The notes beneath the pieces were generated by a model that worked only from the letters and a program-made list of their open reading frames with translations, did no database searches and was not told the DNA's origin. 64,000 nt of DNA. Source: Bacteroidota bacterium (GTDB lineage: Bacteria > Bacteroidota > Bacteroidia > Bacteroidales > FEN-979). Location: assembly GCA_026391735.1 (NCBI GenBank), contig JAPLDL010000011.1:128211-192210 (forward strand), in the 5' to 3' direction. Made by a program: the position numbers and the translations under genes. This document shows positions 26,598 to 55,623 of this stretch, in pieces. How positions within the stretch are numbered: position 1 is the stretch's first letter; each line of letters starts with the position of its first letter.

Positions 26598-27590
26598 ATG
26601 GCCGAATCAAACTTTGTCGATTATGTAAAGATCTTCTGTGCTTCCGGGAACGGAGGAGCGGGGTCGAAACACTTCCTGAGGACCCGGCTCACTGCCAGGG
26701 GAGGCCCTGATGGAGGTGACGGGGGCAGGGGAGGCCATGTTATTCTTAAAGGCAACACCCAGCTGTGGACCCTGCTGCACCTGAAATTCACCAAGCATAT
26801 CCGTGCAGGCCATGGGGTGAATGGGGCAAAAAGCCTTCAGACCGGCGCATTTGGTAAAGACGTTACCATTGAAGTTCCTTTGGGCACTGTAGCAAGGGAT
26901 GCCGAAACGTTAGCTTTCGAATGCGAGATAACCGAGGACGGGCAAACCCATATCCTCGTCCCGGGAGGCCGGGGAGGCCTTGGAAATGATCATTTCAAAT
27001 CGGCTACACACCAGGCTCCCAGGTATGCCCAGCCGGGAGAACCCGGAATTGAGAGCTGGAAGATCCTTGAACTGAAACTGCTTGCCGATGTCGGGCTGGT
27101 CGGTTTCCCAAACGCCGGGAAATCCACCTTGCTTTCGGTTATTTCTGCAGCAAAACCCGAAATAGCTGATTATCCTTTTACAACCCTTGTCCCCAACCTT
27201 GGAATAGTTAAATATCACGACAACAGGTCGTTTATCATGGCCGATATACCCGGGATCATCGAAGGGGCCCACGAAGGAAAAGGGATAGGACTGAGGTTCC
27301 TGAGGCATATTGAACGAAATTCAGTGTTATTATTCATGATCCCGGCCGACAGTAACGATATACGCCATGAATACCAGGTGCTGCTCAGGGAACTTGAAAT
27401 GTATAATCCCGAATTGCTTGATAAATCAAGGCTTCTGGCGATAACCAAATCCGATCTCGCCGATGAAGAGATTGTTGGCGAACTCAAAAAGGAACTTCCG
27501 CCGGATATTCCTTATGTATTTATTTCATCGCATAAGAAAACCGGCTTGCTCAAACTGAAGGGTATGCTTTGGGAGGCACTGAATATCTGA
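26598..27590 (+). CDS. obgE: Obg family GTPase
   Basis: [82 protein letters not shown]. Confidence 0.97.
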
Positions 27591-27656
27591 TATCTGACAT
27601 CTGATATCTCAGATATCGGATATCAGATATCAGATGTCAGATGTCAGATATCAGAT
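27583..27656. repeat. heptamer array, head-to-head: ATATCTG-type units then CAGATAT-type units
   Basis: atatctg|atatctg|acatctg|atatctc|agatatc|ggatatc|agatatc|agatgtc|agatgtc|agatatc|agat; 7-bp period, inverted in the middle, overlaps the obgE stop codon. Confidence 0.85.
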
Positions 27657-50445: not shown

Positions 50446-52227
50446 ATGATAAAGCGAGTTCTGATTTATGCAGTATTGGTAGGTATTACTCTTCCCGGGT
50501 TTGCGCAGAAGGGTGGAGTGACTGCCAGGGATCTGAAGGATTATGTTTATTTTCTGGCTTCTGATTCTCTGAAAGGAAGGAAACCCGGCACTCCTGAGAT
50601 GAATGTGGCGGCAAAATATATCCTTGAACATTTTAAGGCAGCCGGGCTTAAACCTATGGCTGATAACGGGTTTCAGTATTTTGACATTGTCACCGACGTT
50701 ACCCTTGGAACCGAAAACAAGATATCTCTCGATGGTTATGATGCGTCATTCAGGAAGGAATTCATCCCGCTGGCATACTCTTCCAGCGGAGAAGTAAAGG
50801 CTGATGTGGTTTTTGCCGGATATGGTTTCGACCTGGATCTCGACAGCCTGAAATGGAGCGATTATTCAGGGATTGACGTGAAAGGCAAGTGGGTGATGGT
50901 TTTCAGGGCCGATCCTGAGCTCGATAAAACCGACAGCAAATTCATCCCGTTCAGTGATGCCCGCAGCAAAGTTCTTACAGCAAAGGACAAAGGAGCTGCC
51001 GGGGTCCTGCTTGTCACACCCAGAGGGCTCGACAAGGATGATAAGCTAATGGCTGTTGTCGTGGAGAACAACGAAGTAACCAGCGGCATCCCGGTGATCA
51101 ATATAAAGCATGAGCTTGCCGACCGCATTCTGGCTGCAAAAGGGTTTTCGGCCGACAGCCTGGAACGCCTGATCAATGCAAAACAAAAACCGCATAGTTT
51201 TGAAACCGGCACCCTTGTCAATGGAAAGGTTGATGTGGTTCAGAAGCATGCAAAAACTGCCAATGTGGTTGCCTTGCTTGAAGGCAGCGACCCTGTTTTA
51301 AAAGACGAATATCTCGTGATCGGAGGCCATTACGATCATCTGGGTTTCGGCGGACCGGGTTCGGGTTCAAGGGTGCCTGATACGAATGCCATTCATAACG
51401 GGGCCGACGATAACGCTTCGGGAACTGCGATGGTGATGGAACTTGCAAAGGCCCTGGGTCCCCAGAAAACAAAACTCAAACGAAGCATTTTATTTATCGC
51501 ATTCTCGGGTGAAGAAATGGGACTGCTCGGATCCAAATATTTCGTGAACAACCCGGTTGCTGACCTTAAAAAGATCAAAGCCATGTTCAATTTCGATATG
51601 GTGGGCCGCTTTGATAAGGAAAAGAACTCCATTTCGATCAGCGGGACAGGGACATCCGCAGAAGGAGACAGTATTTTAAGGGTTTTTGAAAAAGGACTCA
51701 CGTTTATGGTAACCCATTCCCCCGATGGTTATGGTCCTTCGGATCATGCTTCATTTTATTCCTCAAACATACCGGTATTCTTCTTTACAACCGGGGTTCA
51801 CATGGATTACCACACGCCTGCCGATGATGCTGGGAAGCTGGATTACAACGCTGAAAAGAAGATCTGTGATTTCAGTGTTAACCTCATCTCGGATATTGAC
51901 AACCTGAAGAAAGACCTTACGTTTAAGGAATCAGGTAAAAAGGAAAACGCCGGCCGAAGCGGCCGCCGGCTTAAAGTGACTCTTGGCATCATGCCCGATT
52001 TTGCCGGGTCTGAGAAAAAAGGACTGAGGGTTGACGGGGTCACAAAAGACGGACCGGCCTATAAGGGAGGAATGCTCAAAGGTGATATAATCATTTCGGT
52101 CCACGGCATGAAAGTCGAAAATATCTACGACTACATGGCACGCCTGAATAAACTGAAACAGGGCATGACAGTAAACGTGGAAGTACTCAGGAACGGGAAA
52201 GTCGAGATATTGATAATACAGTTGTAA
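50446..52227 (+). CDS. M28 family aminopeptidase with PA and C-terminal PDZ domains
   Basis: LVIGGHYDHLGFGGPGSGSR...NGADDNASGTAMVMELA...LFIAFSGEEMGLLGSKYFV...FNFDMVGR...PSDHASFY; C-terminal GLRVDGVTKDGPAYKGGMLKGDIIISVHG. Confidence 0.93.
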   Translation: MIKRVLIYAVLVGITLPGFAQKGGVTARDLKDYVYFLASDSLKGRKPGTPEMNVAAKYILEHFKAAGLKPMADNGFQYFDIVTDVTLGTENKISLDGYDASFRKEFIPLAYSSSGEVKADVVFAGYGFDLDLDSLKWSDYSGIDVKGKWVMVFRADPELDKTDSKFIPFSDARSKVLTAKDKGAAGVLLVTPRGLDKDDKLMAVVVENNEVTSGIPVINIKHELADRILAAKGFSADSLERLINAKQKPHSFETGTLVNGKVDVVQKHAKTANVVALLEGSDPVLKDEYLVIGGHYDHLGFGGPGSGSRVPDTNAIHNGADDNASGTAMVMELAKALGPQKTKLKRSILFIAFSGEEMGLLGSKYFVNNPVADLKKIKAMFNFDMVGRFDKEKNSISISGTGTSAEGDSILRVFEKGLTFMVTHSPDGYGPSDHASFYSSNIPVFFFTTGVHMDYHTPADDAGKLDYNAEKKICDFSVNLISDIDNLKKDLTFKESGKKENAGRSGRRLKVTLGIMPDFAGSEKKGLRVDGVTKDGPAYKGGMLKGDIIISVHGMKVENIYDYMARLNKLKQGMTVNVEVLRNGKVEILIIQL

Positions 52228-52229
52228 CC

Positions 52230-52354
52230 AGTGATAAGTGAATAGTGAAGGTTATCAGTGAACGGTATCCAGTTATCCAGTTATCCAGTCATCCAGTCAT
52301 CCAGTCATCCAGTTATCCAGTCATCCAGTCATCCAGTCATCCAGTCATCCAGTT
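52230..52354. repeat. degenerate AGTGANN heptamers followed by 11 copies of the 8-mer ATCCAGTY
   Basis: agtgata|agtgaat|agtgaag|gttatc|agtgaac|ggt then ATCCAGTY x11 at 52267-52354 (Y = T,T,C,C,C,T,C,C,C,C,T). Confidence 0.97.
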
Positions 52355-52370
52355 ACTTAAAGACTAAATT

Positions 52371-52772
52371 ATGGACTACGAACAGATCTTTAACGAAGCC
52401 TTCGCACTGAAGTTCATCAAATTCTGCATGGTTGGCTTTTCAGGAGTTTTCGTTGATTTCGGGATCACTTTCATCTGCAAGGAATTTCTGAAGATTCAGA
52501 AATATATCTCCAATGCGATAGGGTTTACCATTGCCGCCACAACGAATTATTTTATGAACCGGATGTGGACCTTTCATAGTCATAATCCTGAAATAGGGCT
52601 GGAATTCACCAGGTTTTTCCTAATCGCACTCATCGGACTGGGGATTAACCTGGTTATCATATGGACCCTGACGGGAAAATTCAGGGTGAACTTTTATGTT
52701 TCCAAGCTGGCAGCCACTATTCTGGTGACTATCTGGAACTTTATGATCAATGCTTATTTTACTTTTGCCTGA
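52371..52772 (+). CDS. GtrA-family membrane protein
   Basis: FIKFCMVGFSGVFVDFGITFICKEFL...ISNAIGFTIAATTNYFMNRMWTFHSH...FRVNFYVSKLAATILVTIWNFMINAYFTF. Confidence 0.88.
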   Translation: MDYEQIFNEAFALKFIKFCMVGFSGVFVDFGITFICKEFLKIQKYISNAIGFTIAATTNYFMNRMWTFHSHNPEIGLEFTRFFLIALIGLGINLVIIWTLTGKFRVNFYVSKLAATILVTIWNFMINAYFTFA

Positions 52773-55574: not shown

Positions 55575-55623
55575 CACCGATCACCGGTTCCCGGCTCCCT
55601 GTTCCCGGTTTAAGGTACCGGAT
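55575..55623. repeat. heptamer array, minus-strand unit CGGGANN
   Basis: Reverse strand CCGGTAC|CTTAAAC|CGGGAAC|AGGGAGC|CGGGAAC|CGGTGAT|CGGTG; runs across the yidD stop codon (minus strand). Confidence 0.7.

Follow-up and report, generated by a model that had tools for sequence, protein, structure and literature searches.

We characterized the array of eleven ATCCAGTY octamers upstream of gtrA as belonging to a family of slippage-prone, fast-turnover intergenic filler that is dispersed through the genome and specific to the lineage, a reading to which we assign a probability of about 0.72. The array lies in a window of 64 000 nt (the whole stretch of DNA that was analysed), which is the end of contig C14 in the 2.81-Mb MAG of an uncultured freshwater (lake) Bacteroidales. 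Fast-changing spacer DNA is more likely here than an on/off switch for gtrA, because the genome has ∼50 copies of such arrays and the same gap of relatives holds different repeats. The host genome (G000) was compared with the other genomes of its genus (G001–G007; eight in all) and with more distant relatives, one genome per species; ∼464 kb of the host genome were sampled as stretches.

The array is part of a wider habit of this clade, whose gaps carry arrays of 7- or 8-bp units, with the unit differing by gap and by species. The arrays may grow and shrink by slipped-strand replication, as differences in unit number at orthologous loci suggest. They would persist where insertion is harmless, mostly downstream of stop codons and in convergent or operon gaps and less in promoter gaps (a placement seen statistically in the sample). 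Over species time other arrays replace them or grow over them, as observed at three gaps. The octamer unit was presumably copied between loci, since one unit recurs at many unrelated loci. The gtrA array itself would most likely lie inside an M28–gtrA transcript, and affect gtrA little or only incidentally. One could also think of an active process that repeatedly writes and replaces 7–8-bp arrays in Bacteroidales gaps, ATCCAGYY with a covarying hairpin (see below) perhaps being one mobile form of it; we consider this unlikely.

The gap between the M28 peptidase gene and gtrA

The gene upstream of the array (50446–52227, + strand; stop codon TAA at 52225–52227) is an open reading frame for an M28-family peptidase with PA and PDZ domains (Pfam; E-value 7e-44 for M28). 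Its orthologues are present in 8 of 8 genomes of the genus, with protein identity of 85–92% and, where compared, DNA identity of ∼78–84%. The downstream gene, gtrA (52371–52772, + strand; ATG at 52371), codes for a small membrane protein of 133 aa, and its assignment to the GtrA type in the first-pass annotation is borne out by a Pfam GtrA/DPMS match (PF04138, 5.7e-29). In nearly all close relatives gtrA follows the M28 gene. The neighbourhood consists of mnmA, the M28 peptidase gene, ChaN and an S41 protease gene, which do not make up a polysaccharide or serotype-conversion operon.

The octamers occupy positions 52267–52354 (+ strand) without interruption and, as first described, end 16 bp before the ATG. 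Only base 8 varies (C or T): two copies of ATCCAGTT are followed by three units ending in TC, one in TT, four in TC and one in TT. TRF reported 10.9 copies with 96% matches and a score of 153; no other array in the window came close. As TRF found 43 arrays in the 464 kb of host DNA versus 1 in shuffled sequence, a chance origin of the octamer array is excluded.

Right after the M28 stop codon, where AGTGANN heptamers had been noted, we saw degenerate heptamers at 52230–52263 (+ strand): AGTGATA, AGTGAAT and AGTGAAG at 52230–52250 and, after 6 bp, AGTGAAC at 52257–52263. They are probably left over from an earlier array of another kind, as judged from the letters themselves and from the CTCATCA heptamers in the same gap of G001 and G004; as reverse complement, the latter read AGTGATG, which is similar to AGTGANN. 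Given this similarity, a newer, unrelated array has probably grown over an older one at the transition from 7- to 8-bp units. Two unrelated abutting units thus fit better than one array changing its period, which had been proposed as a record of array evolution.

Between the array and gtrA lies an AT-rich leader of 16 bp (52355–52370, + strand), which contains no promoter-like site. In the M28–gtrA gap as a whole, a sigma-70 scan gave no sigma-70-like site on the + strand, nor was there a promoter of the TAnnTTTG type, the Bacteroidetes consensus. The RNA fold of the array was no better than that of shuffles (z = 0.59), with no hairpin. Outside the genus the order mnmA–M28–gtrA is kept and the M28–gtrA gap is often <20 bp (spacing in bp: 1 in L032, −4 in L033, where the genes overlap, 9 in L037 and 13 in L035), which suggests that M28 and gtrA may form an operon. 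The array is probably situated in a transcribed leader or an intercistronic stretch; of the earlier idea that it affects the 5′ region of gtrA, the position in a leader or intercistronic stretch therefore probably stands, while the promoter-spacing part lacks a promoter-like site in the gap.

In the other genomes of the genus this gap is filled differently. CTCATCA heptamers were found in G001 and G004, CCCAGTC/CCCAGAA units in G005, AACGCCAT/AACGCAA units in G006 and CACCATTT units in G007; no clear array was present in the gap of G002 or G003. The ATCCAGYY octamer was at gtrA in no same-genus relative examined. The G001 assembly breaks inside its CTCATCA array at this gap (L205 1–60 and the end of L024).

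If the array were a contingency locus, its unit number would alter transcription or translation of gtrA, in the way that ATCTTTC heptamers act at hmw1A, a proven precedent (PMC8262952). Eleven tandem units (96% identity) near a start codon agree with this, as do sister arrays: the longest runs had 9, 3 and 2 units at one set of orthologous ATCCAG loci and 4, 3, 3 and 1 units at another. Since these runs differ at orthologous loci, arrays of the family change length over species time, and the predicted variation in 8-bp steps holds to the extent that it is seen between species. However, the octamer occurs at ∼50 places rather than at gtrA alone, the gtrA gaps of the genus have other units or none, several relatives have almost no gap, no promoter-like site separates array and gene, and the neighbours are not surface-polysaccharide genes. 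Furthermore, the C/T variants leave no more than four identical units in a row, for which reason the slippage rate should be lower. Phase variation of gtrA is possible, given the differences in unit number between species at sister loci, with nothing specific pointing to it; a contingency locus at gtrA appears quite unlikely. A switch specific to gtrA, as initially suggested, disagrees with the ∼50 dispersed arrays and with the octamer being kept at gtrA in none of the same-genus relatives.

A dispersed octamer family and the placement of arrays

A search of the host genome with three tandem ATCCAGTY units (up to three mismatches) produced 383 matches (203 and 180 on the two strands); the reversed control produced none. 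Eight ATCCAG arrays with at least four cores were present in the 464-kb sample, from which we estimated, by extrapolation, ∼50 arrays in the genome. In 31 fetched arrays (302 units) positions 1–6 read ATCCAG at 97–100%, a conservation somewhat inflated because exact ATCCAG cores served to select the arrays. Positions 7–8 were CT (108), TT (98), TC (46) or other (13). Sequence recognition, and not neutral slippage, could be behind the near-invariant core with variation only at YY.

The family is distributed very unevenly. Matches were found in 16 of the 43 genomes of the taxonomic family; there were 630 in G004, 383 in G000, 163 in G001, 3 in G002 and 0 in G005. Four tandem ATCCAGYY units occurred in none of the 394 other genomes in a sample of 395 from the class. 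The flanks of the 31 arrays showed no insertion boundary common to all, an inverted arm and hairpin being present in a subset only. With respect to co-directional flanking genes the octamer runs in the same direction in 8 cases and in the opposite direction in 11, i.e. with no orientation preference; octamer arrays were found between convergent genes as well.

The octamer is part of a wider abundance of short-period arrays. Among gaps of at least 30 bp, 27–28% carried arrays in the same genus and in near relatives (0–2% after shuffling) and 13% in far relatives (3% after shuffling). The commonest period was 7 and its multiples, and most units were 7- or 8-mers. About 30 of the 43 host arrays were in intergenic DNA, which makes up 6% of the sampled DNA.

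The type of gap matters. With gene calls made by a simple open-frame heuristic, arrays of 7- or 8-mers were seen in 10 of the 35 convergent gaps of the host genome, in 13 of the 104 co-directional ones and in 2 of the 51 divergent ones (convergent versus divergent, P = 0.003); arrays are thus depleted in divergent, promoter-bearing gaps. Autocorrelation at lags 7 and 8 was elevated in co-directional and convergent gaps of the host but not in divergent ones, and no such autocorrelation was observed in coding sequence of the relatives. The depletion in divergent gaps, together with the lack of orientation preference, makes a general promoter or start-codon role unfitting.

These data also bear on the notion that ATCCAGYY arrays might bind a putative DNA- or RNA-binding protein coordinating dispersed genes, by analogy with the role proposed for TAACTGA, for which translational regulation has been put forward (MacGregor 2015, PMC4679880). 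The constant ATCCAG core, followed by CT, TT or TC in nearly all units, would fit such a network, and the strand AACTGGAT of the octamer differs from TAACTGA by a single inserted base. On the other hand, the 8:11 orientation and the arrays in convergent gaps are unlike the forward, start-codon-proximal placement in BOGUAY, and the family is patchy within the genus (0 matches in G005, 3 in G002, 630 in G004); a housekeeping regulon is unlikely, because it should not vanish so readily within a genus. We regard a regulatory network as decidedly unlikely.

Array turnover and a composite hairpin element

The reading of the octamers as fast-turnover filler can be followed at other gaps. In the host, the S41–yidD gap has GGGAGCC-like units; most relatives have different heptamers there, including GGGAACA (L021), GCGAAAR (L023), TGGTGAAA (L025), CCAATGA (L035), GGGAAGA (L044) and GGACGAR (L045). 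At the obg–PAP2 gap G001 has a short remnant, G007 related degenerate units, G005 CCATGTA, G004 little, and G006 only 9 bp. Turnover at S41–yidD therefore matches that at M28–gtrA; at obg–PAP2 it does so partly.

Within the window, a second array at 27583–27656 consists of ATATCTG heptamers followed by inverted ATATCAG heptamers; it overlaps the end of obg and runs towards the PAP2 gene. A third, weak array of CCGGTTC heptamers is at 55584–55610, between yidD and the S41 protease gene. Elsewhere on the contig, G000:C14:90661–90859 holds longer intergenic repeats (two copies of 37 bp and two of 23 bp) with GCTTCGCTACC motifs; they lie between convergent genes, and GCTTCGC-like words recur in further gaps and in relatives.

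We also observed a composite dispersed element, in which an inverted arm (AACTGGAT)n, a hairpin NNNGC-TTC-GCNNN and GATAACTGGAT are joined to (ATCCAGYY)n (L175–L204). There are ∼14 such sites in G000, ∼13 in G001 and ∼15 in G004, with single cases in G003 and G005. In the hairpin stem 131 of 140 cells were Watson–Crick pairs, in comparison with a mean of 110 and a maximum of 122 in 2000 shuffles; the stem is kept by compensatory changes. Several species retain the element at orthologous loci, with differing unit numbers.

One could speculate that the gtrA array is half of a mobile inverted-repeat element, MITE- or REP-like, that has lost its other arm and hairpin. The arm–hairpin–arm sites in three genomes (G000, G001 and G004) and the preserved stem pairing would be in line with that. 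However, the gtrA array has neither inverted arm nor hairpin (fold z = 0.59), the full module is missing from most fetched arrays, and the copy number of the Y1 transposase PF01797 does not track array load; we find this origin very improbable. PF01797 is present in a single copy in 8 of 8 genomes of the genus, whatever their array load, and is absent from the octamer-bearing genomes G036 and G039–G041. As it is uncoupled from load and no octamer array was found in the flanks of its G000 copy, a RAYT/REP origin was rejected; the palindromic element is not linked to a Y1 (RAYT) transposase, as REP elements are.

Titration of DnaA by the TTATCCA part of the array, which resembles the DnaA box (TTATCCACA), was rejected because the bases preceding ATCCAG vary (CT, TT or TC) and GT instead of CA stands at the last two box positions.

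The case of gtrA is a caution that arrays should be counted genome-wide before a single array beside a gene is called a phase switch. It also draws attention to a clade where about one in four gaps of at least 30 bp contains 7–8-bp arrays, with turnover between sister species; comparison of orthologous gaps makes the long-standing question of the origin, spread and persistence of bacterial heptamer repeats testable.

Comparison with known repeat systems

At hmw1A of Haemophilus influenzae, the number of heptamers in the 5′ UTR/promoter region lowers expression; mapped promoters flank the tract and effects on expression were measured (PMC8262952). The gtrA locus shares with it a 7–8-bp array in what is probably a leader upstream of a gene; in contrast, the octamer is genome-wide. 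Contingency loci are tied to one particular gene or surface function, which is not seen for the octamer.

Heterocystous cyanobacteria have STRR, short tandem intergenic repeats of which some can form hairpins (PMC2670836). The ATCCAGYY arrays are likewise short, tandem and intergenic. STRR belong to another phylum and have other units, a distinction by description rather than by sequence.

Intergenic TAACTGA repeats are known from Beggiatoaceae, cyanobacteria and a few Bacteroidetes (MacGregor 2015, PMC4679880). Both systems form short, dispersed intergenic arrays, with relatives that have shorter gaps lacking the repeat, and the octamer strand AACTGGAT equals TAACTGA with one inserted G. The octamer unit differs in being 8 bp long and in having no strand preference relative to start codons. 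Three tandem TAACTGA units had no match in G000 or in any of the eight genomes of the genus, and identity with the TAACTGA family was ruled out. Elsewhere in the taxonomic family TAACTGA does occur, in G041 and G042 (23 matches to three tandem units in G042).

As for long simple sequence repeats (LSSR), the account of Mrazek et al. (2007) relayed in PMC4679880 gives units of 5–11 nt, mostly heptamers, with a patchy distribution and slippage as the proposed mechanism. The ATCCAGYY arrays share this range of unit size, the patchiness and the proposed slippage. Many dispersed, mainly intergenic arrays are present in the host genome, and its tandem units of 5–11 bp extend beyond chance length, as expected of LSSR/STRR-like repeats. 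Set against the account as relayed, the present case differs in that units change between orthologous gaps of sister species and that one octamer family with a fixed core occupies ∼50 loci. The ATCCAGYY octamer is thus new within the kind of LSSR/TAACTGA-like repeats and stands outside the TAACTGA family itself.
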